NCBI RefSeq assembly: GCF_913776295.1
Contig: NZ_CAJYOJ010000052.1
Coordinates: forward strand, 1 to 64,000
Reading direction: 5' to 3'
DNA from: an uncultured Pedobacter sp.
GTDB taxonomy: Bacteria > Bacteroidota > Bacteroidia > Sphingobacteriales > Sphingobacteriaceae
DNA: 64,000 bases
The position numbers and the translations under genes are program-made. The notes beneath the pieces were generated by a model, which made no database searches, was not told the origin of the DNA, and saw only the letters and a program-made list of their open reading frames with translations. Of this stretch, positions 1,269 through 21,867 are shown piece after piece (within the stretch, counting starts at the first letter, position 1; the number at the start of each line of letters is the position of its first letter).

Positions 1269-1288
1269 AGAATTGGGCAACCTCTGAA

Positions 1289-2018: not shown

Positions 2019-2459
2019 ATGGTCAGTCTATCGGATGTTAATCAAATCCTTACCGAAATGCTTAGTGCCTATATAGGCCCCGATCCACGTTCAGGTAAAC
2101 ACAAACCCATTACTATTGCCAACACGCTTTACGATGTAAACAATATCATCAAGCTAATCACCAAAGCAAAACCTTTGGCCAATGAAAGCGCCTTTCAGCA
2201 ATATGCCCAAAACCAAACTGAGCAATTAATGGCCGTTGGTGATTTCGATATCGAATACCTGGCTGAACTATTACATGACGGCTTAAGTACCTATATTTTT
2301 CAGGAAGAGGGTTATGAGGGTGTGAGCCTCAACTTTTCTACCGAAATTACCGCTGCCTATAAAATGATTTTTGATTGGTTTGCAGCTTGCGATGCCTGGT
2401 GTAATGCTGTTGAGGTTAATGAAACTAATGAAACAATCTGTTTAGCAGCCATAGCATAA
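2019..2459 (+). CDS. Hypothetical protein, 146 aa, first gene of the giant-protein locus
   Basis: I do not recognise this protein. From ATG 2019 it reads MVSLSDVNQILTEMLSAYIG and appears mostly helical and acidic, with no signal peptide or membrane segment. Two Trp/Cys-containing stretches lie near the end (FDWFAACDAWCNAVEV). The frame is closed by a TGA at 1998-2000, so the start must be TTG 2001 or ATG 2019; I chose the ATG. A 39-codon frame (1922-2041) overlaps this start and might couple translation, but it is unsupported. It precedes 2716 and 3084 on the same strand with a 256-bp gap containing a weak hairpin, so it may be its own transcription unit. Confidence 0.6.
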   Translation: MVSLSDVNQILTEMLSAYIGPDPRSGKHKPITIANTLYDVNNIIKLITKAKPLANESAFQQYAQNQTEQLMAVGDFDIEYLAELLHDGLSTYIFQEEGYEGVSLNFSTEITAAYKMIFDWFAACDAWCNAVEVNETNETICLAAIA

Positions 2460-2506
2460 ACGTTTAATTTAATCGGCTCTTTACTTTATACAGCTATGAC
2501 AGAAAA

Positions 2507-2532
2507 CACCCCTTACTAATTTAGGAGGGGTG
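2507..2532 (+). terminator. Weak hairpin after the 2019 gene
   Basis: CACCCCT (2507-2513) pairs with AGGGGTG (2526-2532) over a 12-nt loop. No T-run follows, so termination is uncertain. Downstream, 2563-2594 carries short GACT words (GACTTTAGACT, GACTCTGGACTT) that recur at 4544-4569, apparently another intergenic word repeat. Confidence 0.3.
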
Positions 2533-2715
2533 CCCAACCAGCTTATTTCTTAAACCCGCATTATTGACTTTAGACTAATGACTCTGGACTTAAAGCTAAA
2601 TCCTATAAATCCCCATTACTAAGTATTTCATTTGCGTTAACAATAACGTAACTTAGGTTAATTAATTTGCAGTAGGCTAAATGCCTGATTGTTAAATCTA
2701 AATAAACCCCTCACC

Positions 2716-3078
2716 ATGAGTACAGACCTCGTTAAAACCTACATTCTGAACAGAAGTTCAGACGATGTTAAATTAAGCCTTATTATCGGCGGTATAGAAC
2801 AAACCGGCACCAGTTTAATCACCCTTGGCGAAACGCTGATTTTAAAAGATCATTCAGGTGATCTTCACCAGCAGGTAATCGGGCAAAACAATAATCTTCA
2901 CCAGAAAGTATTGAATATTATTACCATCGTTACCGATACTTCCCCAAACCATAACGACACCGATTTATATGTATTATTAGAAGGTGGCTTTGTTACCAAA
3001 GGTTATAAAATGCAGGAAAAGGTGCAACCTGGTACTTCAGCTGTTTACACGGCGGAAATTACCTTTTATCAATTTTAA
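2716..3078 (+). CDS. Hypothetical beta-rich protein, 120 aa
   Basis: Not recognised. It starts at ATG 2716 (MSTDLVKTYILNRSSDDVKL). An in-frame extension to 2689 lacks an ATG and reads as leader sequence. The protein alternates hydrophobic and polar residues and is rich in Gly, Thr and Val, suggesting a small beta-sandwich. It has no signal peptide, Cys pair or membrane segment. The stop lies 5 bp before the next gene (3084), so the two are almost certainly co-transcribed. Together with the tail-fibre-like protein farther along, a structural or adaptor role is conceivable, but this is guesswork. Confidence 0.6.
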   Translation: MSTDLVKTYILNRSSDDVKLSLIIGGIEQTGTSLITLGETLILKDHSGDLHQQVIGQNNNLHQKVLNIITIVTDTSPNHNDTDLYVLLEGGFVTKGYKMQEKVQPGTSAVYTAEITFYQF

Positions 3079-3083
3079 GTGTT

Positions 3084-4364
3084 ATGAAGTATCTGATATT
3101 AATTGCCCTCACAATATTAGCGGTAACCGCTTTTGGCCAAACAGCCGATCAAAAAGAAATTAAAGAAGTAAAACTCGATCTGCTTAAGGCACCAAGCTCG
3201 CCGGCCTCGGCATTATTGGGCTTTGCCGTTACCGATATCGAAAAGCCAACTGATGTAAGCGATTTTATGCTTTCGGTACAGTCGGCTACTTCATCTTATA
3301 CTAAACTCCCGTCCAATTATGCAATCGATATTGCCCCGTTTTATCTGTTCCGCAATAGAGGTGCAGATTTTAGCACTACCGGGAAAAACGGATTACAATC
3401 GACCCGGTTCAAAGATTATTTCAGGCAAAGTTTTGTGGTATCACTGGCATTGCGCAATCCCGATTCGGCTTTCAACAACTTTAAACCCACCAGTACCTAT
3501 GGCGCGTTGGGTTTAAAATTTTCCATCATCAGGCCACAGTACAATAGCGAAAGCAAACAGAAATTAAATTCCATATATGAAAAACAGCGTGCATTGCTGA
3601 TGATCTATAAAATTGGTTTGGAAGAGAAAAGGAAATCGGCACGTTATGAATACCTGGGCATCAGGAACATCTACCTGCTCGATTCGATTTCGCGATTGCC
3701 ATATCTTACCGTAGAAGAAAAGCAAGCACATGCGCTTACCATGATGGAAGATACCACCAGCGAGTACGCCAAAAACGAGAAAGAAAAGAGTGTGTTAAAT
3801 ACCGGTTTCAAAAAGGACATACAGACCGAACTGGCCAAACAATCTAAATTAGAAGCCGATTTGCAGGCAGAAGCAAAAAGCTTTACCGCCCACCGTGAGG
3901 GTTTATCAGTTGATATTGCCGGTGGCTTAAGTACCGAGTTCAGGGACAAAAGATTTGATAATTCGAAAATCTTTAACTCCGGCGTTTGGAGTACATTTGG
4001 TTATAACTGGACCAATGGCAGTTCTGTTTTAGGGCTTGCACGGTATCTGTATAATCCGGATGAAGTATTTGCAATGGATAATATGAAAAATGAAGTGGCC
4101 AACCTGTCTACCTTTGATACCGGTTTGCGTTTTATTTATACCAAAGGCAAATTTGGCGGAGGTGCGGAGGCACTTTACCGAAGCATACTCTCATCGGGTA
4201 CGGCAAAACCTTCGTGGCGGGTGGTAGCCAATGCTGATTATGCACTGGCTGAGAATCAAAAAATTATCTTCTCCTTCGGCCGGAACTTTGATGGTACTAT
4301 AACCAAAAACGGAAACCTGGTGGCAGCTTTAACCTTGCTCTTTGGTTTTGGAACCAGTAGATAA
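3084..4364 (+). CDS. Secreted or outer-membrane protein with a central helical segment, 426 aa
   Basis: The N-terminus (MKYLILIALTILAVTAFGQ) is a clear Sec signal peptide with likely cleavage after AFG. Residues about 50-160 and 275-426 are rich in aromatic, alternating strands (for example YAIDIAPFYLF and IIFSFGRNFDG), the pattern of an outer-membrane beta-barrel. The middle (about 165-275) is charged and helical, probably a coiled coil. No family is recognised. It follows the 2716 gene by 5 bp. It is the only exported member among the neighbours, so it could be the surface anchor or pore for the giant proteins that follow; that is inference from position. A 415-bp gap with repeats separates it from the 4780 gene. 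Confidence 0.6.
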   Translation: MKYLILIALTILAVTAFGQTADQKEIKEVKLDLLKAPSSPASALLGFAVTDIEKPTDVSDFMLSVQSATSSYTKLPSNYAIDIAPFYLFRNRGADFSTTGKNGLQSTRFKDYFRQSFVVSLALRNPDSAFNNFKPTSTYGALGLKFSIIRPQYNSESKQKLNSIYEKQRALLMIYKIGLEEKRKSARYEYLGIRNIYLLDSISRLPYLTVEEKQAHALTMMEDTTSEYAKNEKEKSVLNTGFKKDIQTELAKQSKLEADLQAEAKSFTAHREGLSVDIAGGLSTEFRDKRFDNSKIFNSGVWSTFGYNWTNGSSVLGLARYLYNPDEVFAMDNMKNEVANLSTFDTGLRFIYTKGKFGGGAEALYRSILSSGTAKPSWRVVANADYALAENQKIIFSFGRNFDGTITKNGNLVAALTLLFGFGTSR

Positions 4365-4382
4365 GGAAATTGGTTCAAAGTA

Positions 4383-4484
4383 ATTTGTTCATTGGTACTG
4401 CAAACTGCCAATTGCAAACTGAAAACTGTTATTTGTTCATTGGTACTGCAAACTGCCAATTGCAAACTGTTATTTGTTCATTGG
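4383..4484. repeat. 39-bp perfect direct repeat (48-bp period) with ACTGCAA words
   Basis: Bases 4383-4421 and 4431-4469 are identical over 39 bp, separated by 9 bp, and a third partial copy (ATTTGTTCATTGG) lies at 4472-4484. Inside each copy GCAAACTGCCAATTGCAAAC is itself built of repeated words and shares ACTGCAA with the 1289-1687 array. GACT-type words follow at 4544-4569. Small frames across it on both strands are by-products. The remainder of 4485-4779 shows no gene and should contain the leader of the 4780 gene. Confidence 0.8.
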
Positions 4485-4779
4485 CTATTAGTGAATTGGT
4501 TATTGCCCGAATTAATCATTGGCGAATGTGGAATTGTTTAATCGACTCTGGACTTCAGACTAGGGACTAAATACTAACCCAAATAATGGCTCAAAATATC
4601 CCAATACTTAACGGTTGGTTGCAAATACTTAAACGATGCTTTAGGCACTTTCTTTTAGAGGGCATTCAGAGTATTTTTAACTATTGTTTTTGTAACACAA
4701 CTATCTTCAGCTACCGGTAAGATAGATGAAGACTACAATAGCATGTATTAAAAAGTAACACGCACAAAAATTTAATTGC

Positions 4780-7700
4780 ATGCCAACCGCTAAAAAAGCC
4801 GTAATCAATAGATATTATCCAGCCCTTTCCGAAGTGATTACGGTAGATGACCTTCCGGAATTTTTGCACTTTGCAGAAAATGGGCTGGATCAGTTACTGG
4901 ATAAAATCCATTATAAAAATCTTCAATATTCAAAAAGTCAGCGTGGCGATTCGGCTTTTTACAGTCTCGATATTGTAACCAGTAATATCGGCATAGATTT
5001 GCCTTTTGGTATGCGGTTGGTACTTAACCCTGATCTGGACGGTGACAGCAGTATATCGTCTTTTCCAGTTTCACTGCAATATCAATGGGAAATGCTGGCT
5101 TTCTTACGTGCCTTTAAAGTACAGAATTTTGCCTTTACCCCTGAAGCTTTTTATGAGCTGGGCCTTCAGATTTTTCGAATTACTGAAGATGAGGTCATTG
5201 CACACATCCTGAATTATTTTGTGGAGGATAAAGAAACTGAAACCAAATTTGAGCAATTACTGGATTCGGTAAATGTAGTTTATGGAACTAATTTAAGCTT
5301 CCAGCCAGATGAAGAGCCTACCGTTGACAAGGTTGTTACCTTAATTAATAACGAAGCAAGTATTCCTAAAAGTGTTTCGGCAGTGATGTTTGGGATTTAC
5401 ATTGCAGATACCCAAGGCGAAGAAGCCCGTGAGCGGTTGCAGCAGTTTTACAACCGACTGGTACCTAATGGTATAGAAGATTATATCAAACAGCTGATTA
5501 CCCCAAAACTTAAGGCTACATTAAAATTATCCGCCGGAATAGCATTTCCGCGGAAGATATTAAAACCAGTAGATGCAAATGGCACTTTAATTCCGGGCGA
5601 ACCAACGTCAATGTTCACTTTCGGCGAAGCTACCTTTTATGCCGACACTGAATCTGGTATAGGTGCAGATGTCGAATTTGCGGGTAATCTGGTACCCGAA
5701 TATGCCCAGATAGGCAATACAAACCTGTTTATCGGGATCAAAAAAGCCAAGCTTGATCTCAGCAAAAAAAGAAACATTTCCGAAGCAGATGCAGCAGGGT
5801 ACGGGCCAGATTTTACCGGCTTATATATAGAAAGGGCCACTATTGGTTTAAGCCGTTTTGGCAAAAAAAATACCACAAAAAACAGTGTAGCCTTAATTGG
5901 AGAGGATATGCTGATCGGCACTGGTGGAGTTTCAGGTAAAATCTCGCTCGAATCTAACGGAGCCCTATACCAGGATTTTGGTTTGTTTGAAGCAGAGCTG
6001 AATCTGTTTTCGCTCACTTTTAAAAAAGGCACTATTGTAACATCCGATATTGCAGGTAAACTTACTATTCCTGGTTTTAAGGATACTACCGGGCAGCAGG
6101 CCATCATTGATATCCGTGTACACATTCAGGACAACGGTAATTTTGAACTTACCGCCCAACCACAACAGGGCCTGATGCCGATTACCCTGCCAAACGTATT
6201 TGTTTTAAACATCAGAAGTTTTAACCTCGGTAGGGAAGCCCGCGGTTTTTATATCCAGATTGCCGGAACTTTGGATTTTGTAGCCGATATACCAGGCCTG
6301 GGGCAGGTACTACCCAAAGATATCGAGATCCAGAAATTAAGAATCTGGGATAATGGTGATATTGAATTTGATGGCGGGAGTTTTGTTATTCAAAAAGCCT
6401 TTAAGCTTAAAGTGGGTCCGGTTAACCTGGAGGTGAGCCAGATTGCCTTTGGTGCTTACACCAGACAGTTAAATGGGGTAGAACGGAAATACCGGTTCTT
6501 TGGTTTTGATGGGATGATCAATACCGGTAATGCCGGGGTAAATGCCACTGGTAACGGCATAAAATATTACTTTACCGTTGATAATAACGATACAGACAGA
6601 CCATTTGATAGTTTTACGAGCATAGATGGCATCGGTATCGACCTGACTATCCCGGGCAATGTAAGCAAAGAAAAAGCTGCTTTTATATTAAACGGCTATT
6701 TGAGCATGAGCAATCCCGATCCTGCTATTGTGGGTTCTAATGCCGGATCCGAATATACCGGTTCAGTAAGTTTTGCTATGCCTAAACTCCGTTTAAACGG
6801 TTCGGCTGCTATGCGTTTAAAACCGAGTGTACCATCTTTTATTGTCGATATTGGGATGGAACTGCCAGGCCCTATCCCGCTGGGTGCAACCGGCCTGGGG
6901 ATTTATGGTTTCAGGGGAATTATTGGCCGGCATTATGTGGCCTCAAAATCGGCCGCCACACCACCTTTACCCGATACGGCCAGTTGGTGGGAATATTATA
7001 AAGCTAAAAGCAATATTACCCACAGGGAAGGGATAGAGTTGGATAAATTTGCGGATAAACCAGGCTATTCAGTTGGGGCAGGGGTTTCTATTGCCACTTC
7101 ATTTGATAAAGGTTTTACTTTTTCGACCAAACTCTTTTTATACTTAGGTTTGCCAAACCTGTTCCTGTTACAGGGCCAGGCAGGCGTTTTGCGTTCGCGT
7201 ATTGGATTAACTAAAGATGTAGATCCACCCTTTAGCGCTTTAATTGCCATAGATGATCAATCCTTTGTATCCAGCTTAGGTGTAAATTACCGCTTACCCG
7301 AAGGTGGCGCTTTTGATGGTGCGATATTTAACCTTACCGGTAAACTTGAGCTGGCTTTCTTTTTTAACAATGCTTCGGGCTGGTACCTGAATGTAGGTAA
7401 AGATCAGCCTGAAAGTGAAAGGATCAGGGCCAGGATACTTACGCTTTTTCAGGGATATGCTTACCTCATGATTTCCTCACGAGGTATTAAAGCAGGGGCA
7501 GGGGCCAGATTTGATTTTAAAGCAAATTTCGCTATTGTAGAATTTGGTTTTGGTGCTTTTGTTGATCTGGGGGGATCCATCAGCTTCAAACCGATCCAGA
7601 TTGGTGGTTACATCAGGATGGGTGGTTATGCCTATATCAGGATCCTAAGATTTAAGTTTAATATTTCGATTACCGTTACATTAGGTTTTGAGGCACCAAA

Positions 7701-10700
7701 CCCGTTTACCATTTATGGTTCACTGGAGCTGGATTTAGGCTTGCCATGGCCGGTAAGAAAGCTGGGCCGTATCAAAATAGCAATAAGCTGGAACTTTAAT
7801 CACAACAAAGGTCCATTGCTTGCGCCAATACCGGTATTAAACCTGCCCGATCCTGCTACGGGCTACATGCCCGCTGCGGCCACCAATATGCTCTCTGGCG
7901 AAACTTTCCCCATCAATTATGTCAATTATGAAATCACTGGTAATTCAGTAAATATTCCTGCACCAGGCGCCGTAGGCTGGCAATATAATTTTAATGATGA
8001 AAATGCGTTAACGCATGTTACCATACCATTGGATAGTTTTATTGATATTGATCTGCTAAAGCCCGTAAAACCAATGGCTGCGCTTATTGGTGGTGCCGCT
8101 AATCAATTGCCAGATGGATATGTAGAAATGCTGCCCCCACAAAAAGGGATCAGCAGTCAGGTGAGCCACGAACTGCAGTTGTTGGGACTGGACATTTATG
8201 CCTGGAATGAAAACGGAAGCTGGCAGCCTTACCATATTTACGAAGCCGTTACCGTTATCCGTGCCGATAATACCGGTGCCGGAGCGATTGATCTTAGCAA
8301 ACTGAACAATGCATACTGGCAGTTTAACGAACCTAACCGTTACAACAAAATCAGGGTATTATCGCAGAATATCTTCAGCTTTAAAAATGGTATGAGTCAA
8401 TCGGCAGCCGATCTCGATGCTTTAAACTTTCGGCGGAAAGACCTTTTCTGTTATGAAAATGTGGCGAAGCAACATGTCGTGAACTGGATCGGTCAGCCTT
8501 TGGATAAAGTGTACCAGCCTGGCGAAACCTTTTACATTAAAAACCTTGCATTTAAGTTTACAGCCATTGAAGGGCGCGTAAAGCATGATGCAGGCTTTGC
8601 GAACACCATACTGCAGGTAGCACAAAATGGTGGCTCCCTGAGCGTGATTTTTCCTGAAGCGGTCACTACGCTTTCGCTCGATTTTGGATTTAATGCCAAT
8701 GTAATGCGCATTGATTATATCAGGCATCAATACCGTATCGGCTATGGCACAAAGTTTTTACAGCTATGGGGTTATGATCTGGGTAATTTAATGGTGCCCA
8801 AAACGGTCAGATATAATATCCCTGTACTCACAAAGCAATTAGGTGGAACCGAAAGCAATACCACTTTAGCCTACAATAATTTAGCACAGCCCATTCACGA
8901 AGTGCAGATTCATTTCGAAAAAGAGTACCCCTTAAATTTTGAAGGTGATATTATATTAGGGGGTTATTTTAACTTACCGTCAGGTTATATTTCGGGCACT
9001 GCTTTCCCAAATGGGCATGAGTTTGATGCAGATAAATCATTGCTTTATGCCACTATTTACACTAAGGCATTTACTGCGGCAGAAGTATTAACAAAATCGG
9101 ATAATAATCCAATTGGTGCGATAGGCCAATGGCCAATGGATAACCGTGTACCGGCTACAGGCAACTCTAATGCCTTAGTGGCTGGTCACCCCGGTATGAC
9201 AAATGGTTTTTACGGAAAAACTGCCAACAATGAGTGGCAGTTACACCAAACATATGATTATCTTACCAATGGAGATGCGCTATTCATTCCTTTTGAACCG
9301 GGATTAAAAGTAGAAGAAGGGAATTTTGCTATCGAAGTTACTGCTGTTTTTAATCCTTTTGAAGCTGGCGTGAGCACCCTTTTTTCAAGGATTACGCAAG
9401 ATCCTGCAACAGGAAAAATGAAAGGTTATGCCTTACACCTCTATCACGATAATCCTGGCGACGCTGAAAAGGTCTATGGTTCTGAACAGGCTGTGCCAAC
9501 CTTCAAAATATGGTTTACGGCTTACCAGGATTTCAGTCATTCTGGAATAGTTGCCTCAGAAAAATATACCTTAAACTGTAATACCGGTAAACTGACTGAA
9601 AAACAGTATAAACAAATCCTGATTTCGGTAAACCGTAGCACCGGAACGATTGATGTTTTTATTGATAAAATGCTGAAGGCCAGTAATGCCATCCCTTCTG
9701 AACTGGATTTTGTTGCTCCGGCAGTTAAAATAACCAATTTAAACCAGCTAACATATTTAACAGAAGTATTGCAACGCCGCCTGGAAGAAAATAACATTAC
9801 CCGTACCGGTTTTATTGATGAAGCAGAATTATTGAGCAATAATTTAAATAAAACTATTCAGCCGGTTTGGCGCCCGGATACTACTTATGCCATTGTGGTT
9901 AAAACCCGTGATGTAGTTGAAGGGAATGCAGGGGCTTCCATAGAGAAAAACCACATTTATGGCTTTAAAACGGTTGGGCCGATCGGCCATTTCCAAAAGA
10001 AAAATGCCATTTATAAAGCATTGGAAAAGCAGGATCAGACAGCCGCATTTAAACTGGCTGATTTAAAGCACTACATTGATTACGAACGCTCATTCCCTGA
10101 TGCACAGAGCCGTTACGATTTAAGCAAACCTGTTTTTTGCGATGATCCGAAAGTAAGCCTGTTGTTTGTTAAACCTTATCTCAATGCCATGTTTGCTAAC
10201 TGGGATGGTTATCTGGGGCTGCCAACGGTTAAGAGTACGCTGCAGCTGCAGCTGTTGGATCCTTATGGCGCAATTTTAAGTCCCGAATTAATCTGGGAAC
10301 AATTGCCTGATGAAGAAATTACCAATAACAACTTCATGAAATTACCTCCAGACCAGCAAATCCTGTATTTCATGAATAAAGCTGCGCTCGAAGATTCGTG
10401 CAACGTAAATCCTGTAAGCATTAAAAAGCGTAAAAAGCAAGGTATATACCACTTTCCCAATCTTGTTCCCAATCGTTTGTACACCGCATTATTTACTGCA
10501 GTTTACCAACCGCAGGGCGAGGTAGAGCAAAGGGCAGAAATTCATCGGTTTAACTTTAAAACATCCCGTTTCAACACTTTTGCAGAACAGGCCGGAAGTT
10601 ATGTGCTTGATGGTACCGCAGGGGCTGAAAAATATGCGGTTTATCCAGTAAACGTAAGTTTTACACGGGCGGAAATTGATGGGAAAATCAAAAATCTAAT

Positions 10701-11157: not shown

Positions 11158-11200
11158 CAATCTGTAAAAAATCAGTAATAACTCATAAAATACTTTCAAA

Positions 11201-14200
11201 ATGGCGTCTGAGAATAATTTCAATGCTTATTCATCCGATTATACCCGTATAGTAAATTGTCTTTCGGCGATATATGCCTTGGAAACAAGCGGGAGCTTAA
11301 ATAATCAGGCAGAATTACTGCGTTTGCTGCGCCTGCTTGAAAAAGATGTTTTAAAAAAGTTATACCTCATCACGATCAAGGTATTAAAAATAGCCATTGG
11401 CCCTAACGGTACGATTTACATTGGGGGCGATTTTAGCGAAAAGAATTTTTCCGATAGAGATTTTAATGTTGGCACCTTACTGATTAATCAACCGGGTAAT
11501 GCAGACTACTTTTATGGGGATTTTGACGGTGACGATTTCCTGTTTGATGATTTTTATGTGGGTTACCTTGATACCAGCGGAATGGGTTACAGTTCCATCT
11601 TTAAGAGCATCTCGAATATGCTCGAAGAAATTAATCATTACAGCGAGGATACTTTTAGTGAAGAAGACCTTTATGCATTAAACGAAGCTTTAGAAGCGTT
11701 ATTGGACGCATTTAACGCGATAAAAAAAATATTGGCTCAATTGGGTTTGAACCCTTGTGGTCCCGGTGATACTTACCTGAACAATACGGGTGGCATTTAC
11801 CTCCAGGCAGCTGGCGCTGATGGAAGCAATGGAATTCCTGAAGGCATTCACTTAAGATGGAGTCTTACCGGCGAAATAGGCAATAACCATTTACCCAAGG
11901 GAAATTATTATAATGCCAAAAATGGTCAGCTGTCAGGCTTTAACCGAAAGGACGATTATGTCAGGGTATTCCGTACGAAATATATAAATGCGCCAACTAT
12001 ATCTATCGATTTAGAATTCAACCGTCCGGTAGTCAACTTTAAAACCAGGCAATGGATTTACACCATTAATAATACTGTAAACGGGAAAAAAATCACCAAC
12101 CGTGTGAAACTTAAATTTGATAGTGCCAATGCTTACAGGCAACTGGCCAGAACAATTGATCCTTTATTGGATTATTATCGGTTTTTATCTTCCTACAATG
12201 ACATCATCACGATAGAAATAGAAGATAAAACCAGCTATTCAGTGGGTTTTCATTTGAGTAATATTAGCACTGAAAAGGCATTGCTTAAGGTGAAATTGCT
12301 TTCACAGCTGGTTGATGATGCGGATAACGCTACTGATGTACGTAAAACAATGGTTCTGGATAGCCCTGGCGATGGTTTGGAATTCATAAAAGCAGATAAT
12401 ATTGCTAAAATATCGATCAAAAAATCAGCAAATGCTGTCATTAAGAATTTTTATTTCTCAACCTACCACGATTTTTTAACTACCCGTGAAGAAAAAGACT
12501 GGGTGGAAGTAGGAAATGGTCTTGGCATTTCTTTAGATGATACTGTTGTTTTCGATCGCCTGGAAAATGAAACCTATCCTATAGATCACCTTTGGCCACA
12601 TTTTAATGATGGTACTACCGTAAAAGTGGCCAATTATCGGGATAAATGGTTAATTCCCAGAAACAATAATCCTTCGGTTAAAGCTGCGCTAAGCACTTAT
12701 CTTCAGTTAAGCGATACCGATCCAAGGGCAGAGCAAATAATCACCAACGTAAATCCTGATCAACCAAATGAGGGTTTTTCCATAAGCTACCTGGATATTA
12801 TCAATCTGCAGGCACTTGATTACCATTTCGCCAGGATGTTGGGACTTGGATATATCGATACACAGGTCGATAATGACGGTTTTATTTATCAGGTCCGTTA
12901 TACGAATAAAAGTAGTTTAAATTCTTCTGCTGATTCTATTTATGCCTATACCAGTTTACCCGTTACTAAAACTGATTACCTGCTACCGGAAAAGCCTAAA
13001 ATGAGGCCTGTGGCTTACCAGTTTTTAGGTGATGATGAAAGCATGAATGATATGCTTAATGGCGGTGGTTATGCAAAGTTTGATAACACACGTGTAGTCA
13101 ATATTGGTAGAATGCCTTTCGCCGACGAACGGGTTGGACACGATTTCTTTAAGGATCTGAATGCCATCGAGAACCAAAATATTTTTGAAAAGCCCAAGCC
13201 GGTTTTTTATGGATTGGAATACCGTTCAGCAAACCAGTCCGGTTATGTAAAACCGGAAATTACCACCGGTAGTTTTCAGGATGAACATCAGTATTATGCC
13301 TACGATAATACCAATACTCATGGTGTACAGGAACCTGAGCCCTTAAGGGATGATGTGCTGAGTTTATTTATCCATTTTGAAAAACAAACGGGTAAGCATT
13401 TTTATGCCATTTATGGTATTAACTGGTTCTTTAGGGCTTCGGTATTAAGCGATGAGGTCAGTACTGACGTAACAGAATTTGCAGCAGTAAATACACTATT
13501 GCCACCAAGTGATGTAGCAGTGCAGTATATCCAAAAAGAAGATCCTTTATTATTTACTACTACTGCCGAGCAAAATTGGCTGGCCGGACGTAAACAAACT
13601 TTTGCCGGTCTGGATACTGGTTTTACACGGGTAACTTTTAACTGGCTTGATATACTGGATGCCACCAGGTTGATTGATCAGTCGGCAGCACAGCTTAATA
13701 CGCTCATCAAGGCAGATCATGTTAAAGCTTATTTTAATCCCGAACTACCCTTAACGTTAACAGGTCAGATAAAAGATATTATTCACGAACCTGATGAAAA
13801 GCTGATCAGGTTAATTATTGGTAGTTATAAACAGATTGATGGTACCGTGGTAACACCATCTTTTGCACCTGGCAATTTTTTTAAGTTTACCAATAGCCTA
13901 TTGGCCACGCCTGACGGTAAATACCGTGTAGAAAATATTGTAAACGGAAGTACCGGGACAGAGATTATTGTTGAAAATATTAATGAGAGTAAAGTAGTAG
14001 ATGATGAAAATGAACCAGGAACTTATTCGACCCAAAAGTTTGCAACTTTCCCGGAAATTGGAAGCAGGTTTTCGGTTACCGAAAACTTAAGTAATCCTGC
14101 AAACTGGGAGCCAATGGCAGAGACCGTTCAGTTAAAAAGTTTTGCGGACGCAGATAGCCCTCATGTAGAACGCATTGCTGATTCTGAAGGTAATGAAACG

Positions 14201-16195
14201 ATTTTTTGGGTGGGTGGCATTCATAACCAGGCAACTGTTATACCATTATTCGGACCTGAATACCCTGATGGTTTATTGGGTTATTATAAGATCAAATTTG
14301 ACAGCAATGGTATTTTAAATAACCATCCTCAAATTAACATGCCTTTTGATGTCAGAAATCCTGATAAAAATTCGCCAGATCAGTTAAGGCAGGCGCATGT
14401 AGAATGGTATAAAGGATTGATCAGGATACCTGCTGCAAGTGGTAAGCCTGAACCAAAACTTTTGGAGGTAATCAGGATAGAAGAAACGCATCCCATACAA
14501 CTATATGTTTACGACCCCGGTTACGCAGACGATCCGATCCAGGTTTCGGGACCTACGGCTTTAACCATCCCGGTAAATTTACATCCGGGTTATCGGGTTT
14601 ACTTTTTCCCGGAGCCTGCGCCTGCGCATACTTTTAATGGCACTCATATACTTCCGGCAGGAAATGATAATGACAGGCGTACACTGCTGGGATTGCAGAC
14701 AATAGATAGCAGACCTGAAGGTAATAACAGTGCTTCAGAAGTTTCAGTGCCAGCCATACTGCTTGCCCGTAAAATTGAAGAACCCGTACAATTTGAAGCC
14801 CCGGTTACTTTTGGCCTAAAAGTACGGCCAGATGCAACCGGAAAAGCTTCATTTACTTTTGATGTTAAGATTGCGCCGACTTTAAACGGTATAAAACGTA
14901 CTCCGTTTGGATTTATGTTTTACCGTACAACCAATGAGGATGTATTGGAAGCTTTGTACCAACCCAGTACCGTAACTCAGATTTTGAAAGCGCTGTCAGA
15001 TCTTGATGAAGACTTATTTTATAATCAAAGGTATTTAGAATTGGTTAATCTAACTTTTGATCCAGCTCATATGGATTCATTTAAGGTATTTTCTGCAACA
15101 CCAAATCCTTATGGTTTCCCAAAACCCGATAAGCCAGGGCTTGTTGAAACAACTGATAGTGTAGAGATTAGGAAATTAAAATATGCTGCCGCCATACAGG
15201 AAACTTTATTGCCTTTAACTGAACAGACACCAATTCTGGCATTTATTAAACAAGGCCTGCAAACTGAAAATGCATTGCCTGTGATCCGCGATCTGGATGG
15301 CAATTTGCTTGATGCTACAGATGCCAACTTTAATCCTTTCCCCATGATCAGGCAGTACAATAAACCATCGCAACCTAATACAACCTACATCCGCTTTACT
15401 GATTATTTTTTAAGCGGAGCATCGCGAAAGTCATATTTCTTTGCCGGGGTAGAGGTGACCAATCAGTTAGAACCAGGCCTGTTGAGCCCTTTTGCCGGAC
15501 CGGTAACCATTTTACAAACACTACCTTCAGCAGCCCCACTGCTAACCAGGTTTACCATTAATCTCGACTCTTTTTCTGCGGAAAGCGGTGCAGCTGTAGT
15601 TTTCAATATTGCGCCATTCTCACCTGAAGACCGGATCTCTAAAATCAGGATTTACCGTTCAAAAGATCAAGATAATACGGTTACACTTCAAGGTATGGAA
15701 CACCATGTAGACCGTGAGATCGTAGCTGAGGATCGTAAAGGTTATGAAATTACTGACGATTTTAGTGATTTAACAGCTGCACCACTTGGCAACACTATTT
15801 ATTATCGCCTGGCCGGTATCCGCACCATTATCAATGAAAAAGGACAGCAAGAAGAGGTATTGTCGTTAGGTACAGATGTAATACCCATTGCATTGCCTGA
15901 TTATATCAATCCAGATGCACCTGAATTGACCTATCACAAGGCCGGAAACAAAATAACCTGGACCGCTACGGCAAATAAGGCCAATTACCATGTATATAAA
16001 CAAAACAACCGTGGAAACTGGGAGAAAGTATACACGGTTGATGCACTAAATTCATCAGCTCAAATGGAATATCTGCTGCCGGCCCCGTTATTAGCTGTTG
16101 ATGATGATGGCGATAAGCTATATCATCGTTTTAAAGTGCAGGTGCAGAATACATCAGGTTTATTGAACCTTACCGATAAAGAATTGACTATTTAA
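11201..16195 (+). CDS. Giant multidomain protein, 1664 aa, with C-terminal FnIII-like domains
   Basis: It starts at ATG 11201 (MASENNFNAYSSDYTRIVNC) with no signal peptide. Residues 1-75 and 125-180 are helical. About 80-123 is strikingly Asp/Phe-rich (FYGDFDGDDFLFDDFYVGYL). At about 186 a Gly/Asn-rich segment begins (CGPGDTYLNNTGGIYLQAAG, then IHLRWSL), followed by more than 1200 residues of beta-rich sequence. The last ~215 residues look like two fibronectin type III or similar Ig-like folds (about 1449-1564 and 1574-1664, e.g. NKITWTATANKANYHVYKQN). It lies 43 bp after the 2125-aa gene and 19 bp before the 1038-aa gene, so the three are likely one operon encoding parts of one assembly. No catalytic motif was recognised. 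Confidence 0.7.
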   Translation: MASENNFNAYSSDYTRIVNCLSAIYALETSGSLNNQAELLRLLRLLEKDVLKKLYLITIKVLKIAIGPNGTIYIGGDFSEKNFSDRDFNVGTLLINQPGNADYFYGDFDGDDFLFDDFYVGYLDTSGMGYSSIFKSISNMLEEINHYSEDTFSEEDLYALNEALEALLDAFNAIKKILAQLGLNPCGPGDTYLNNTGGIYLQAAGADGSNGIPEGIHLRWSLTGEIGNNHLPKGNYYNAKNGQLSGFNRKDDYVRVFRTKYINAPTISIDLEFNRPVVNFKTRQWIYTINNTVNGKKITNRVKLKFDSANAYRQLARTIDPLLDYYRFLSSYNDIITIEIEDKTSYSVGFHLSNISTEKALLKVKLLSQLVDDADNATDVRKTMVLDSPGDGLEFIKADNIAKISIKKSANAVIKNFYFSTYHDFLTTREEKDWVEVGNGLGISLDDTVVFDRLENETYPIDHLWPHFNDGTTVKVANYRDKWLIPRNNNPSVKAALSTYLQLSDTDPRAEQIITNVNPDQPNEGFSISYLDIINLQALDYHFARMLGLGYIDTQVDNDGFIYQVRYTNKSSLNSSADSIYAYTSLPVTKTDYLLPEKPKMRPVAYQFLGDDESMNDMLNGGGYAKFDNTRVVNIGRMPFADERVGHDFFKDLNAIENQNIFEKPKPVFYGLEYRSANQSGYVKPEITTGSFQDEHQYYAYDNTNTHGVQEPEPLRDDVLSLFIHFEKQTGKHFYAIYGINWFFRASVLSDEVSTDVTEFAAVNTLLPPSDVAVQYIQKEDPLLFTTTAEQNWLAGRKQTFAGLDTGFTRVTFNWLDILDATRLIDQSAAQLNTLIKADHVKAYFNPELPLTLTGQIKDIIHEPDEKLIRLIIGSYKQIDGTVVTPSFAPGNFFKFTNSLLATPDGKYRVENIVNGSTGTEIIVENINESKVVDDENEPGTYSTQKFATFPEIGSRFSVTENLSNPANWEPMAETVQLKSFADADSPHVERIADSEGNETIFWVGGIHNQATVIPLFGPEYPDGLLGYYKIKFDSNGILNNHPQINMPFDVRNPDKNSPDQLRQAHVEWYKGLIRIPAASGKPEPKLLEVIRIEETHPIQLYVYDPGYADDPIQVSGPTALTIPVNLHPGYRVYFFPEPAPAHTFNGTHILPAGNDNDRRTLLGLQTIDSRPEGNNSASEVSVPAILLARKIEEPVQFEAPVTFGLKVRPDATGKASFTFDVKIAPTLNGIKRTPFGFMFYRTTNEDVLEALYQPSTVTQILKALSDLDEDLFYNQRYLELVNLTFDPAHMDSFKVFSATPNPYGFPKPDKPGLVETTDSVEIRKLKYAAAIQETLLPLTEQTPILAFIKQGLQTENALPVIRDLDGNLLDATDANFNPFPMIRQYNKPSQPNTTYIRFTDYFLSGASRKSYFFAGVEVTNQLEPGLLSPFAGPVTILQTLPSAAPLLTRFTINLDSFSAESGAAVVFNIAPFSPEDRISKIRIYRSKDQDNTVTLQGMEHHVDREIVAEDRKGYEITDDFSDLTAAPLGNTIYYRLAGIRTIINEKGQQEEVLSLGTDVIPIALPDYINPDAPELTYHKAGNKITWTATANKANYHVYKQNNRGNWEKVYTVDALNSSAQMEYLLPAPLLAVDDDGDKLYHRFKVQVQNTSGLLNLTDKELTI

Positions 16196-16214
16196 CCAAT
16201 AAAGAAACAAATTT

Positions 16215-19200
16215 ATGCCACAAATTCCGCCAATTACCGATGCTTATATAGATGAAATCATTAAAGCACCAGATGCTTACAACCCTACCCTAAATAAAAC
16301 GCAGGGGGTAAAACTCAGGGAGTTGATCAAGTTGATGAGAGACCGGTCTGGGGAAAATGATTATTCCGGAATTTGGGAAAATAAGATTTGGAGACCTTAT
16401 CAATCAGTTGCAGAAGCCCTGGCTAACTTACCAGTAGAGATGCGGTTTTTAGGTATGACTATTTTTGTATTAGATAATGGCAACCTGAAGGAATTTTGGT
16501 TTAATCATGGTGTTACCAATGCTCATTTTTTAGAGAAATCGTTAGTTAATCCTGTTGCGGCTTATGATGTGCAGAAAACGTATCAGAAAGATGATCTGGT
16601 ATGGGTAGAAGAAAATGGAGCCAGGGTATTGTACCAATCTAATATCAATAATAATCTTAATAATCCCTTGAAACCGGAAGAAAGCGTTCTGGTGAGCAGT
16701 GGTTTGTTAGATGAATCAGCACCTGCTTCCACCTATTGGCAACAAGGATGGTACTTTGATAGCGGAAATAATTGGACTCCCGATCATACAACTGATTTTA
16801 GTTGGTACACTTTTGGGCCTTGGCAAACCAGAGTACTTCAAATTGATTCACCTGCGTTACCTGCCGATTTTTCAGCTGGGGTTGGTAAAAGTTCTACTAA
16901 GTATATTGCTTCCTATCAGTCGGGTAACCCGTCAGATTATCATTTTGTGGGTGATATGCCAGCTGATCAAGGTGTTACGCTTGATGTTAAGGTGTTTGAT
17001 GAAAACGGAATATTGTTGTTTCATTGCAAACCGCAAAAAATGTTTTATTATCTGGCTTTTAAAATTGTGGTTAAACTCGGAGATCAAATCTATACAGTTT
17101 CTATTCCACAAAATTCAACTGATTTTACAGTTTACCCTTTGAAATGGAAAAAAATTGGCTACGATAAAATTGACACCGATTTGTTTTTAGATATTACAGT
17201 AAAAAGCCAAACCAAAGCCGGTAATTTAACTATAACCGGAATTGGGCAGTTTGAACATCAAACGAATTCGAAAAGACTACGTGTTTTATATGAAGTTGAG
17301 CCAAGGAGTATACGCGATACACAAAATGGCTATATAGAAGAGCGTACATTTCAGGTGCCCATTATCAATGAAGGGAAACTTAACGATTATAGGATATTGG
17401 GTTACTTTTATTCAGAAGGTTATTTTGATAACAGTTTGGATATCGTATTAACTTCTTATACTGGCCTGGCCCGGAAATATGTTTTATTCAATAGTGAAGG
17501 TAGGGGCGAAGGGGCTGGAAGTGGTTTTTTGGGTACGCCATCTACCTGGTTCAAGTTATTGCCCGATATTGATGGCGGGAACTATGGCGGAGCAGATATT
17601 CAGCTAGAAGCATTATGGCATTATCCCCATGGTTGGTATATAAGAGCTAAAGTAGTATCAGTAACTGATGCTGAAAATGGTGGCGGAGACGGCGGAGTAT
17701 ATGGCTTTGCGATGTATGTTAAAACCTATCAGGGAACTTTTATCAGAATATTTTCCAATGATAATGATGATATTGTAATGACTCCGCTCGGAATTCCAAA
17801 CAGGGGTAATGATCCCGAACCCACTACCTTATCTTTTGGCACAGCCAAGTTTGCGCAAATCCTGAAAGTGTATAAAACACCAACTGATGAATTTGATGTG
17901 GTGAGGCTTAAGGATCTGAACGGTAACGGTAGCAATCCATCCAACGGAGATTATATTCAGGCATCACCTGTTGAAGCGCAAAATGCAAGTATTAATATTA
18001 CGGGTGACTTAAAGGTTGGTCAGACTTTTACTGCAGCTCAGGCAACCTTTAAAGACGGCCCTTCGGTACTATCTACCATCAGCGATGCTAATGGCTACAC
18101 GGGTTTGTCTTTTGATGCCAAGGATGGCCCGCAGGTACAACTTCGCTATCAGCCTAACGCTTTAGGTCATGGTTTGGTGATATATAATCCGGGGAATCCT
18201 AATAATACCGGCCTGGGTAATTCTGATTGGCGACGTATATTGGTAGACGGCGATGCCATTGAAGTTAACCCTTCATCATCCCAGAATGCAAATATTGATA
18301 TTAAAGGCAGTATTGTTTCTGGTAGTTTAAAAACAGGACAGATCTTATCTGAAGGGAATAACGGATCGGAATCTACCTTGTCGGGTAATGAGTGGAAATT
18401 GCCTGGCGGTGCTGAGGGATATATCAGGTTGGATGATTCTCATGTTGTTTTTGGAAAAGGATCAGGTGAGGGGTTCCGGTTTGATCAAAATAGCGGAAAC
18501 ATTACTAGACGCTCAGATAACAAAAATGTGGTTTTTGGAGGAGATGATATTGATACTGAAATGGTAACGGCAAGACGATTCAGAATTCTGAGTGATATTG
18601 ATCCATCAGATGAATCTTTTATTGCAAGTCCGCATTTGGGTGGTACGGTGAAAATAGGCAGAATTTCAACCTTTGGTTATACTACACAATCGGGAATTGC
18701 CGGTTTAAAGTTTTCTCCAGAAGACGGCGTTGAAGTTCAAATAAGGAGGCAACCAGGGCTTGGGCATGGGTTGTTTATTTACGATCCAGAAAGTCCGCTA
18801 AATACCAATCCTGATGTGGAAGAGTTCCATCGGATTTTAGTGGCTGGTGATGCTATCTCGGTAAATCCATTGACACCACAAAATGCCAATATAGATTTAC
18901 TAGGCAGTATAATCACACGTAATCCTGGTATTCAGCATCATTATTCGAAGATGAGCTATGAATCTTTTGAAGTAATAGACGCTGATTCTGATAGCATAAC
19001 AGGCCTTTATTTTGGAACAAGCGGGAGTCTTAACTTCAATAATTATTTTCATATTACAGAAGCTTTATCGGGTAAAGAAATATTACAATTGGGCGGCTAT
19101 GGTAATGGGAATGGAAATTCTGCTTTTAGCCAAAGACTTCTGATTTCAGAAGCCAAAATCGATAATGCTGCTGGTTCCGCCAGAACTACATTAGATGTAC

Positions 19201-19331
19201 GGGGTGTTATTACGGCCGATGGGATTGAAATCACAGATCCGACAAAAGGGATTATTCTGGCCGCTCCAAACGGCACCCGCTGGAGAATTACCGTTTCTGA
19301 TTCCGGGGCTTTAAGCACTGTCGCAATTTAA
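16215..19331 (+). CDS. Tail-fibre-like repeat protein, 1038 aa
   Basis: It starts at ATG 16215 (MPQIPPITDAYIDEIIKAPD), without a signal peptide. Residues about 52-110 (RPYQSVAEALANLPVEMRFL, then FWFNHGVTNAHFLEKS) match the style of N-terminal modules in Bacteroidota phage-tail and fibre proteins. The C-terminal half has an internal duplication: GHGLVIYNP...WRRILVDGDAIEVNP near residue 650 recurs near 848 as GHGLFIYDP...FHRILVAGDAISVNP. A QNAxIxIxG motif occurs three times (near 591, 691 and 888). The end (GIILAAPNGTRWRITVSDSG) is typical of trimeric fibre tips. No phage head, sheath, tube or lysis gene is nearby, so it belongs to the giant-protein locus and not to a recognisable prophage. It is probably a receptor-binding or surface fibre. 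Confidence 0.7.
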   Translation: MPQIPPITDAYIDEIIKAPDAYNPTLNKTQGVKLRELIKLMRDRSGENDYSGIWENKIWRPYQSVAEALANLPVEMRFLGMTIFVLDNGNLKEFWFNHGVTNAHFLEKSLVNPVAAYDVQKTYQKDDLVWVEENGARVLYQSNINNNLNNPLKPEESVLVSSGLLDESAPASTYWQQGWYFDSGNNWTPDHTTDFSWYTFGPWQTRVLQIDSPALPADFSAGVGKSSTKYIASYQSGNPSDYHFVGDMPADQGVTLDVKVFDENGILLFHCKPQKMFYYLAFKIVVKLGDQIYTVSIPQNSTDFTVYPLKWKKIGYDKIDTDLFLDITVKSQTKAGNLTITGIGQFEHQTNSKRLRVLYEVEPRSIRDTQNGYIEERTFQVPIINEGKLNDYRILGYFYSEGYFDNSLDIVLTSYTGLARKYVLFNSEGRGEGAGSGFLGTPSTWFKLLPDIDGGNYGGADIQLEALWHYPHGWYIRAKVVSVTDAENGGGDGGVYGFAMYVKTYQGTFIRIFSNDNDDIVMTPLGIPNRGNDPEPTTLSFGTAKFAQILKVYKTPTDEFDVVRLKDLNGNGSNPSNGDYIQASPVEAQNASINITGDLKVGQTFTAAQATFKDGPSVLSTISDANGYTGLSFDAKDGPQVQLRYQPNALGHGLVIYNPGNPNNTGLGNSDWRRILVDGDAIEVNPSSSQNANIDIKGSIVSGSLKTGQILSEGNNGSESTLSGNEWKLPGGAEGYIRLDDSHVVFGKGSGEGFRFDQNSGNITRRSDNKNVVFGGDDIDTEMVTARRFRILSDIDPSDESFIASPHLGGTVKIGRISTFGYTTQSGIAGLKFSPEDGVEVQIRRQPGLGHGLFIYDPESPLNTNPDVEEFHRILVAGDAISVNPLTPQNANIDLLGSIITRNPGIQHHYSKMSYESFEVIDADSDSITGLYFGTSGSLNFNNYFHITEALSGKEILQLGGYGNGNGNSAFSQRLLISEAKIDNAAGSARTTLDVRGVITADGIEITDPTKGIILAAPNGTRWRITVSDSGALSTVAI

Positions 19332-19399
19332 TTAACAAAGGTAAATACATAAGGCAGATGTTCTTCTTATATTGTATGATGAAATGATTGTTTATTCAC

Positions 19400-19427
19400 G
19401 CCGGAGATTATCTTAATGGTCTCTGGC
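19400..19427 (+). terminator. Imperfect hairpin between the fibre gene and the patatin gene
   Basis: GCCGGAGA (19400-19407) can pair with TCTCTGGC (19420-19427) with one G-T pair, followed by TGCTCTTTTA. It may end transcripts of the giant-protein operon, which would give the patatin gene (start 19456) its own promoter or read-through expression. Confidence 0.35.
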
Positions 19428-19455
19428 TGCTCTTTTATCAAACTTAATATCGTTC

Positions 19456-21867
19456 ATGAAAAAATTCCTTAAAGACCTTGCCGGCAGTTTCGTTCCTGCC
19501 TTTGAAAAAGGAATATTCGAAATCCGTTTCAGCTTTAAACGTTTAGCGGTAAGGATATTGGTTCACGATTTTGTTTCAGTGGCCTCCAGCATTGGTTTTG
19601 TTATTTTACCGGCATTTTTAATTGGGTTTATATTTCTGTTATTGCCACAAGGGAGAGATACACTTTTGCTGGTGGTAGAAAACTTATCTACTTTCAATTT
19701 TTGGCCAATCTTTTTTTTGTTATTGGGGATTGCTGCGTGGAGTATGGTATCAGAGCTTAGTGTACGCTATGCGATTTATATCTCCGATAATTCAGGCAAA
19801 AACCTGAGTGATGATCGGGTAGCCTGGCGGAAAACTGTTCAGAAATTACTTGCAGCCGCTTTTTTGTTGTGGCCATCATTTATTGTTTTGGTAAGCATGT
19901 TTTGGTGTATGCTCAGCGCCACTTATATGGAGAAACTACCAAGGTTTTTATGTTTTGGTATCTGCTTTATTTTGATTTACTGGTTAATGTCCTTTTTATC
20001 CAATTTGTACTTTCGCAAATCGGGTAAAGCAAGCGCCGGAGTGTATCTAAAAACAAAGTTGGGAGAACGGTCTTTGCCAGATCGTGAACAGCAGTACCTG
20101 CGTAAACTATATGGCATCTATCAGGATTTTATTTATACGTTACCAAAATCATCAAGTTTTCAGAAAGGTTATAAAGAAGCGTTGCAGCGTTTTACAGATT
20201 ATTTCACAAAATCAACTGAAGGTTTTGCCGAAGGGTTTCCTCAAAATCCAGACGTACTGATCGAAACACGCATGGTGCCTGCAGAATTTAACCTCATTGA
20301 CAGAGAGAAATTATTTAAAGGAAGAGGTGAACTCTATAAATGGACTTATCAGATTCCTGCATCATTTTATGAAGGCTTACATCGTCAGATTAAATTGTTT
20401 GCCGGTGTTTCATTTCTGTTATTCCTTTCGATATCGCTAATTCCTGGCTGGTGGCCGGTGTTTTCGTGGATAGGTGCCCCGGCTTTAATCTGTTTTGCTT
20501 TTGCATGTTATACCGGTATTTATACCGGGCTTCTTTATTTAGATAAATCCCTGCTCAGAAAATGGAAAATTTCCGTCCGCTTCCTGTTGTTCATGGTTTT
20601 GATAGTTTGCTCATTCTATAATCAAGATCATCCTGTGCGAATGGCAGATCATAAAACTAATAAACGCGAATCCGTTGTCGATCATTTCAACAGGTGGTTC
20701 ATGAGCTACAAAGCGAATATCGATAAGCAAAAAGGAGATCATCAGCAAAAATATCCTGTTGTTTTTATTTGTGCCGAAGGCGGTGCGCTACGCACCGGGG
20801 CATATACCAGCTTATTCTTGTCTAGTTTAAGTGCAAAATTGGAAAAGGAAAAAAATGTTGATTTTAAAAAGTCAATTTTTGCAATGTCGGGTGTATCAGG
20901 TGGTGCTGTTGGTTTAGGTTTGTATAATGCTTTAACTTTCGAAAACAAGGTTCAGATTCCCTCTGGCGTATCAGCAGAATTAGCTAAAAAATTTTTTCAG
21001 CATGATACATTATCGCCTATAATAGGGAAGATGCTTTTTGGCGATTTTCTGAATTTATTTTTACCCGTACACATCAGCTTATTTGACCGTTCTATTGCCC
21101 TCGAAAAATCCTGGGAGCAAGCCTATCAATCTCTGATCGATAAAAATAAAGATAATATATTTTCCCGAAGTTTTGCATCCGGAAAAATAAAACCGAACCA
21201 GCCATTGTTCGTCATTAACACTGCAGAGGTTGAAACCGGGTTACAGTGTTGGGTGAGCAACCTAATGCCTGATAGCCTGGCTTTTAAAAATCAACGTGAT
21301 TTATTAGCAGAAAAGGTTAATGATTTAAATTACAGCACAGCCATAAATTTTAGTACCCGTTTTCCTTTGTTTTCTCCGGCAGCAAAGGTGGGCGGGTTAA
21401 ATGGAAATCCACGTTTGCATTATCTTGATGGAGGTTATGTGGAGAATACAGGCAGTGCATCCATGTTGGAGGTGCTTCAACTATTAAAAAGTAAATCAAC
21501 CTACTTTAATCAGATTACACCAATAGTGATCACCTTGCTGTTTAGCGAAGAAGATAAAACTACTCCCAATATCAGATTTGGTAATGAGTTTGTAGAAATA
21601 TTGAATGCATTAACCCATACCAGATCTGGAAATAGTAAGATTAGCAGGTTCCGCATCAAGCAGTTTTTAAACGAAGGCAGTATAGGTTTTGCTATCGATG
21701 AACCCTTAACCGCTGAAGAAAAAAACGTTCCCATGAATTGGGTTTTATCCGCACAGAGTATGAACAATATTACACGCGATATAGAAGACAAATTGAATAA
21801 TACTTCAGAGACGGGTATAATGTCTAAACTTTTAAAGAACAATTTAAATTTTTACAAAGTAAAGTAG
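19456..21867 (+). CDS. Membrane-anchored patatin-like phospholipase, 803 aa
   Basis: The N-terminal half carries about seven hydrophobic segments (roughly residues 40-65, 80-98, 133-155, 163-183, 313-330, 335-360 and 370-385). The C-terminal half, from about 435, is a patatin domain. It has the oxyanion-hole loop GGALRTG (442-448), nucleophile Ser481 in GVSGG (GxSxG) and catalytic Asp658 in DGG, so the Ser-Asp dyad is intact. Patatins hydrolyse acyl chains of phospholipids; tethering to the inner membrane would place the catalytic domain at its substrate. It follows the three giant genes on the same strand (125 bp after the fibre gene), but co-function is inferred only from position. It could also be a housekeeping lipid-remodelling enzyme. 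Confidence 0.85.
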   Translation: MKKFLKDLAGSFVPAFEKGIFEIRFSFKRLAVRILVHDFVSVASSIGFVILPAFLIGFIFLLLPQGRDTLLLVVENLSTFNFWPIFFLLLGIAAWSMVSELSVRYAIYISDNSGKNLSDDRVAWRKTVQKLLAAAFLLWPSFIVLVSMFWCMLSATYMEKLPRFLCFGICFILIYWLMSFLSNLYFRKSGKASAGVYLKTKLGERSLPDREQQYLRKLYGIYQDFIYTLPKSSSFQKGYKEALQRFTDYFTKSTEGFAEGFPQNPDVLIETRMVPAEFNLIDREKLFKGRGELYKWTYQIPASFYEGLHRQIKLFAGVSFLLFLSISLIPGWWPVFSWIGAPALICFAFACYTGIYTGLLYLDKSLLRKWKISVRFLLFMVLIVCSFYNQDHPVRMADHKTNKRESVVDHFNRWFMSYKANIDKQKGDHQQKYPVVFICAEGGALRTGAYTSLFLSSLSAKLEKEKNVDFKKSIFAMSGVSGGAVGLGLYNALTFENKVQIPSGVSAELAKKFFQHDTLSPIIGKMLFGDFLNLFLPVHISLFDRSIALEKSWEQAYQSLIDKNKDNIFSRSFASGKIKPNQPLFVINTAEVETGLQCWVSNLMPDSLAFKNQRDLLAEKVNDLNYSTAINFSTRFPLFSPAAKVGGLNGNPRLHYLDGGYVENTGSASMLEVLQLLKSKSTYFNQITPIVITLLFSEEDKTTPNIRFGNEFVEILNALTHTRSGNSKISRFRIKQFLNEGSIGFAIDEPLTAEEKNVPMNWVLSAQSMNNITRDIEDKLNNTSETGIMSKLLKNNLNFYKVK

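Follow-up and report, generated by a model that had tools for sequence, protein, structure and literature searches.

The TcC proteins of Tc toxins carry variable toxin C-termini. More generally, Tc toxins such as YenTc comprise very large proteins without signal sequences, with toxin parts encoded in one operon and lysis genes beside some loci, and the YenTc toxin of Yersinia entomophaga is described, in the accessible part of one report, as leaving the cell through a type 10 secretion (lysis) cassette (PMC10847048). The TANFOR toxins of Bacteroidetes combine variable C-terminal toxins with SUKH-type immunity, the toxin sometimes being the next gene; approximately 87 % of them carry a Sec signal, export by the type 9 secretion system (T9SS) was proposed, and the accessible part of that paper describes no giants or fibres (PMC7073777). 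Here we report on a stretch of 64,000 nucleotides from an uncultured Pedobacter sp. (the window, which opens with the first base of contig C52), which encodes two giant proteins, c0 and c2, followed by a tail-fibre-like protein, c1. Our comparative analyses suggest, with a probability of about 0.6, that these genes belong to a polymorphic toxin complex found in Bacteroidota that would resemble a Tc toxin with a type 10 lysis cassette but is built from unrelated proteins.

Most features of Tc toxins listed above recur here, including the variable toxin C-termini, which are carried by the effectors as they are by TcC, and candidate lysis genes lie beside some loci; the system differs in its separate fibre genes, its immunity-like genes and its mostly Bacteroidota hosts. 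No Tc, Rhs or SpvB family of Pfam was found in c0, c2 or the conserved carrier c3 (~710 aa), a result that holds at sequence level only, and profile searches with the same three proteins returned no Tc chain among solved structures. With the TANFOR toxins the locus shares the phylum, the variable C-terminal toxins, the SUKH-type immunity and the occasional placing of the toxin in the next gene, and it differs from them, as far as the accessible description goes, in its giants and fibres. TIGR02542, the N-terminal domain of TANFOR toxins, matched none of the proteins scanned and was absent from these loci, and 14 genomes gave only two sub-threshold matches, both on other contigs. The initial annotation had noted that the giants have no signal peptide, and this was borne out among homologues by a crude hydrophobicity test (c0 0/33, c2 0/33, c1 0/30); the same test found no signal sequence on c3 (0/28) or the effectors (0/32). 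These proteins thereby differ from T9SS substrates, whereas c4, which precedes c3 in the window's genome, exceeded the threshold in 2 of 18 cases.

The core genes were followed through 201 genomes of the family, a phylum sample of 296 genomes and a scan of genome contigs, with 149 genomes of the class serving for DUF6603. Matches to c0 were found in 13 of the 201 family genomes: eight at full length, one (G018) with two copies that are both cut by contig ends, and four as N-terminal stubs with at most 169 matched residues (G182:C8, G108:C1, G097:C31 and G176:C10). The same nine genomes that hold a non-stub c0 also hold c2, a tenth giving a weak match of 144 residues, and c3 occurs in eight of these nine and in no other family genome. 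The contig scan yielded 35 c0 loci at 30-86 % identity, or 36 with the window. Among these 36, c2 is present in 33, the exceptions being L071, L081 (a contig of only 3.7 kb) and L085. Thirty have c3; of the remaining six, four break off at a contig end (the window, L067, L081 and L086), one has its c3 outside the examined stretch (L059) and one has none (L063). A c1-type gene follows c2 within 700 bp in 23 of the 33 loci, and the ten without one include the distant loci L077-L084 and L086. Of the 296 genomes sampled across the phylum, six have c3, and in all five besides the window's own it is followed by c0 and c2. The spread is patchy, covering Pedobacter, Mucilaginibacter, Sphingobacterium, other Bacteroidota and two alphaproteobacterial loci (L082 and L083) at approximately 30 % identity. 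The initial annotation treated the giants as parts of a single system, for which conserved co-occurrence of at least four genes would speak; this is supported by the conserved block of c3, c0, c2 and effector, with c1 close to c2 in most loci. As a side observation, the stub match ends at residue 168 in both G182 and G108.

Upstream of c0, the relatives carry c3 and then a separate or fused effector with a swappable C-terminus. When the last 200 residues of 36 effectors were compared (those of L060, L061, L063, L070, L072 and L083 being taken by position), the C-termini fell into 22 groups. A small downstream gene, taken as one of less than 420 aa on the same strand and within 5 kb, follows 28 of the 36 effectors, and among these 28 a downstream family is common to 15 of 19 same-group pairs and to 29 of 359 other pairs. 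Family i3 lies behind all three effectors of group 1, SUKH-type genes in one to four copies behind all three of group 2, family i2 behind four of the five of group 0, and i1 and i8 behind both of group 6. One effector C-terminus resembles Toxin-deaminase (E 0.0057, below the cut-off) and is followed by four genes in a row, of which the one tested resembles SUKH-1 (E 9.6e-05, just below the cut-off). The swappable effector C-termini and the small genes that tend to match their groups are indicative of a polymorphic toxin locus, an assignment that is well supported. The peptidase domains of some distant c3 fusions and the immunity-type small genes kept before c0 stubs, both described below, also favour it.

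An alternative hypothesis is that the complex is directed against eukaryotes and that the small genes after the effectors have no role in immunity. In the distant loci c3 is mostly fused (1000-2900 aa). Consistent with the alternative, some of these fusions carry peptidase domains (S8 in 2/10 and C15 in 2/10) and others show, by eye, motifs of metzincin type; in addition, no small gene follows eight of the effectors, and i1 stands behind several effector groups. However, the downstream family tends to track the effector group, the SUKH-type family recurs behind deaminase-like effectors, and at one locus (L113) a lipoprotein-like gene comes after a peptidoglycan-peptidase-like effector (by eye). 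Decayed loci also retain small genes: in three of the stub loci (G182, G108 and G176), c2 was lost and immunity-type small genes were kept before the c0 stub. An anti-eukaryotic role without immunity genes is thus unlikely.

The fibre-like character of c1, proposed in the initial annotation, is weak in the window's own protein, which reached only E 0.025 against a PHROG, with two short phage matches. By coordinates, Peptidase_S74 lies within c1 of G130 and G121, at the end of both proteins; these are two of the eight G genomes in a search in which 13 genomes behind named loci were not surely placed. Peptidase_S74 is a fibre chaperone. In 10 of the 36 loci, endolysin-type genes of several unrelated kinds precede the core genes at a distance of 0.3-1.8 kb, as detected in upstream stretches of 1.0-5 kb each with queries chosen by eye from these same loci. 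They comprise an amidase in the window's own genome, muramidases (L053, L058), a peptidase-like endolysin (L055, G599), a lysozyme on the other strand (G165/L056), a GH19 gene with a CHAP-like gene (G121/L073) and TIGR02594-like genes below the cut-off of that model (G559, G299, G619). In addition, G559, G619 and L056 carry a spanin-like gene, lipoprotein-like and with a C-terminal transmembrane (TM) segment, a layout like that given for unimolecular spanins in the accessible part of PMC6139136. The presence of endolysin-type genes beside these loci thus suggests release by lysis.

The endolysin-type genes match phage families, Peptidase_S74 occurs in two c1 homologues, and one contig of a viral collection (L138, IMG/VR) carries c3-c5-c0-c2-fibre; all three would also suit a decayed prophage or phage satellite, in which the fibres and lysis genes would be remnants and the giants unusual tail proteins. 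Such an origin is improbable, as c2 was unmatched among 50,697 phage and 72,556 plasmid records, c0 is long and mostly intact at the identities found across the 35 loci, and no capsid or packaging genes were recognised by eye in the tables of open reading frames (ORFs), no family search being made for them. The L138 contig is 63.7 kb long, and close to c3 it has a gene that looks recombinase-like by eye; the system may thus be mobile, or the contig may be mis-called as viral. In seven G genomes inspected by eye over a further ~12 kb upstream, no common cassette was seen beyond the near genes.

The initial annotation had also raised the possibility that these proteins are cargo of a machine encoded elsewhere. 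The locus resembles extracellular contractile injection systems (eCIS) in its fibres, varied toxins and presumed lytic release, and fibres and toxins are known as eCIS companions according to the accessible part of PMC8213781. The window's genome itself holds a sheath gene (G000:C64:86034-88844) with tube-like and tape-measure-like neighbours (by eye). However, Phage_sheath_1 is never inside the locus in any of the 201 genomes, lying on other contigs or far away, and no other contractile parts were recognised by eye in the ORF tables at the locus. Nor is there a genomic association: in a search that covered Phage_sheath_1 and left the sheath family of the type 6 secretion system (T6SS) outside, the family was found in 53 of the 201 genomes, in two of the nine with the system and in 3 of the 13 with any c0, and the three contigs of G071, which has the full system, hold none. 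Because Phage_sheath_1 is present in so many family genomes and in so few with the system, cargo of an eCIS- or tailocin-type machine is disfavoured, and it is improbable that these proteins are cargo or accessory parts of a contractile injection system encoded elsewhere. No baseplate genes were recognised adjoining the sheath gene on C64, which looks like a small or decayed contractile-system remnant. Approximately 12 kb before it, G000:C64:70538-74767 encodes a protein of 1409 aa that begins like a signal sequence and matches Peptidase_S74.

With respect to the fixed parts, c0 appears to be a remote relative of DUF6603 (PF20248) proteins. Compared directly with the family, 2 of 10 c0 members gave matches (best E 0.084, weak), and one member each matched Ig_VWA7 (3.7e-05) and DUF7257 (2.1e-04) better than DUF6603. 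An hhalign comparison of c0 with five DUF6603 proteins, including the bridging protein of L113, gave a probability of 98 (E 2.7e-13) over 685 columns. The L113 locus joins a gene of c3 type (E 6e-44) and one for a lipoprotein-like product to a gene for a DUF6603 protein (Pfam E 3e-116); in this last protein, residues 8-397 resemble c0 N-termini (E to 6e-51) and residues 466-1062 match c0 in blastp (E to 5.9e-06). DUF6603 was found in 6 of the 149 class genomes, at seven places (L107-L113). The DUF6603 operons thus resemble the locus in the aligned c0 core and in the composition of L113, and differ in carrying d1 and d2 at five of the seven places, with no detectable kinship to c2. These two genes (d1, ~1075-1270 aa; d2, ~1640-1830 aa) mark a second system. 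Kinship of c2, c3 and c4 with the partners of DUF6603 was rejected, as 12 profile pairs gave at most 0.4 % probability. We found no mention of DUF6603 in the open-licence papers searched.

A sequence search of solved structures with the giants gave no matches. An AlphaFold (AF2) model of c0 residues 1-1060 shows a long beta meander (mean predicted local distance difference test score, pLDDT, 75.9; predicted template-modelling score, pTM, 0.44). Within it, residues ~635-991 were aligned by VIA-align with porins (Z up to 13.1, with a root-mean-square deviation, rmsd, of ~10-13 A in most rows), with ApoB (Z 12.6) and with LptD (Z 10.0, rmsd 4.7 over 204 residues). In another structural comparison, the neighbours of c0 were LptD, ushers, SlpA and ApoB, the top 16 rows having TM scores of 0.10-0.17 by query length. 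These comparisons only suggest that the c0 core is barrel-like.

The second giant, c2, belongs to no known family in Pfam, NCBIfam, PHROGs or the solved structures; in G619, G299 and G559 (L128-L133) it is extended at the N-terminus, where a VWA-like DESGS motif can be seen by eye. A model of c3 from L065 (pLDDT 80.7, pTM 0.81) found nothing significant in Foldseek, the best E being 0.03 in the Protein Data Bank (PDB) and 0.007 in a viral library, and c3 sequences gave four chance-level rows against solved structures. The rows with Z >5 for its N-terminus (7.7-6.1) were the phi29 tail cell-wall enzyme, CbpA, a cyanophage pre-ejectosome chain and an M23 enzyme, the first three of which we take to be M23-type as well. 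Within c3 residues 5-285, the sole His column reaching 50 % is residue 256 (75 %). As there is only one such column, the N-terminus of c3 may have an M23 (LytM)-type fold that is at most degenerate, although Z values below 8 may reflect a common arrangement.

Considering these parts jointly, we infer that the giants form a released, fibre-aimed particle. c0, c2 and c3 would come together as one large cytoplasmic particle, the c1 fibres would set its target range, the effector would be its payload, and the small gene would protect the producer and its kin. The particle would exit via lysis of some producer cells, as suggested by those loci in which c3/c4 adjoin endolysin-type genes and, in a few cases, spanin-like ones, and, as the least certain step, the porin-like beta core of c0 might provide passage through the target envelope. 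A bolder and decidedly more tentative hypothesis is that this is a new delivery particle without tube or sheath. Two giants, one of them of DUF6603 type with a porin-like beta core, would build it, exchangeable phage-type fibres would aim it, a degenerate M23-type carrier would load it with polymorphic effectors, and sacrificed cells would release it by lysis. If so, DUF6603 proteins would form a wider family with d0-d1-d2 as a sister system. The locus would assign a function to giants undescribed in the family libraries, indicate a role for DUF6603, and provide a means of toxin delivery distinct from contractile, Tc and T9SS systems. The fixed parts fall into no functional family found, no description of these genes was found in the open-licence papers searched, and the system of the giants looks undescribed.

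Several observations weigh against the proposed toxin complex. The fold matches of c0 and c3 are weak. None of 20000 label shuffles matched the 15 shared pairs (the best reached 12), but these shuffles ignore kinship. Family i1 (8 genes) lies behind effectors of six groups, so that the pairing is not exclusive, and in 8 of the 36 cases the effector is not followed by a small gene; the effector of the window's own genome matched nothing in Pfam or NCBIfam. Concerning lysis, 26 of the 36 upstream stretches searched had no endolysin-type match, and no holin family match was found beside the endolysin-type genes examined. In L056, a 146-aa TM gene, the spanin-like 221-aa gene and the adjoining 80-aa gene had no PHROG match, and in G559 a crude test detected no TM segment in the 95-aa product encoded ahead of the endolysin. 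Finally, G130 has no recognisable c3, and two of the 18 c4 proteins exceed the signal-sequence threshold.

In the window, seven same-strand genes with gaps of 43 and 19 bp between the giants were confirmed as ORFs where the initial annotation had placed them (Table 1). Its observation that the window contains no lysis gene stands as read, but the window opens at a contig end, so this absence reflects the contig edge, and the locus very likely begins on another contig of the same genome, C36, which ends at 24638. Pedobacter alluvionis (L052), whose c0 is 86 % identical to that of the window, carries on a single contig c3, an effector, a small gene, relatives of the 152-, 129- and 426-aa proteins, c0, c2, short c1 pieces and patatin. 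Because L052 thus holds both halves together, C36 followed by C52 is very likely the genome order. The end of the effector on C36 is nucleotidyltransferase-like (by eye). Similar short words were also seen by eye near the ends of C36 and C52.

Table 1. Positions of the features of the locus in the window (contig C52) and on contig C36
Feature	Contig	Position	Strand	Remarks
152-aa protein	C52	2001..2459, likely start ATG 2019	+	may be an immunity gene without its effector (orphan)
129-aa protein	C52	2689..3078, likely start ATG 2716	+	pairs with the 426-aa gene
426-aa protein	C52	3084..4364	+	exported, barrel-like (by eye); lineage-specific extra, non-core
c0	C52	4780..11157	+	2125-aa giant, constant in the toxin locus; probable remote DUF6603 relative
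c0 part, ~residues 224-998	C52	5449..7773	+	aligned to DUF6603 proteins; beta meander of residues 635-991 porin-like in the model
c2	C52	11201..16195	+	1664-aa giant, constant partner of c0
c1	C52	16215..19331	+	1038 aa, tail-fibre-like; short N-terminus conserved, remainder variable
Membrane patatin	C52	19456..21867	+	803 aa, accessory neighbour; Pfam Patatin E 5.2e-07
Amidase	C36	14443		endolysin-type
LytTR	C36	15718		
c4	C36	16237		
c3	C36	17922-20051		carrier
Effector	C36	20054-22816		
193-aa immunity-type gene	C36			follows the effector
Phosphoesterase	C36			follows the 193-aa gene
Block from c4 to phosphoesterase	C36	16237-24460		

When the seven window proteins were searched against Pfam, NCBIfam and PHROGs, patatin alone passed the cut-off, the others giving sub-threshold matches or, as for the 152-aa and 426-aa proteins, none. 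The Patatin domain covers residues 439-665, with Ser481 within GVSGG and Asp658 within DGG, so that both residues are in place as the initial annotation had stated; the 426-aa protein likewise has the signal-peptide-like start (hydrophobic window 2.93) expected from its predicted export. Both were part of an interpretation in which the locus would encode an adhesin on the cell surface or an assembly for export, perhaps acting as a lipase too. The giants are beta-rich, and the exported protein and patatin adjoin them. However, the giants have no signal sequence, and relatives are found in few of the 36 loci: two for the gene at 2001, and three each for the gene at 2689, the 426-aa gene and patatin. 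These four genes are non-conserved local extras, and lipase activity of the system finds no support in a patatin that lies near it in three loci only. Moreover, the constant partners of the giants are toxin-like effectors, which a toxin system fits better, and retention of c0-c2 without the effector in most lineages was not seen. We therefore regard an adhesin or export assembly as very unlikely. As for the extras themselves, the 152-aa protein has a relative in the corresponding stretch of P. alluvionis, the 129-aa and 426-aa genes stand together in the window, L052 and L064 only, and patatin relatives near the system were found, besides the window, in L052 and G130.

Other elements were observed around these genes. 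An array of 21-bp units precedes the locus at window positions 1277-1690, with approximately 11 copies at 1462-1690 (62 % matches), and a 41-bp unit is doubled at 4404-4484. At 893-1216 lies a remnant akin to small transposase-like genes found beside other loci of the system (a cluster of 7; family assigned by eye). Downstream, from 22398 to at least 40795, the window encodes a polysaccharide-use locus with a hybrid two-component sensor, GH43, GH88, GH35 and SusC/SusD-like proteins, which looks unrelated.

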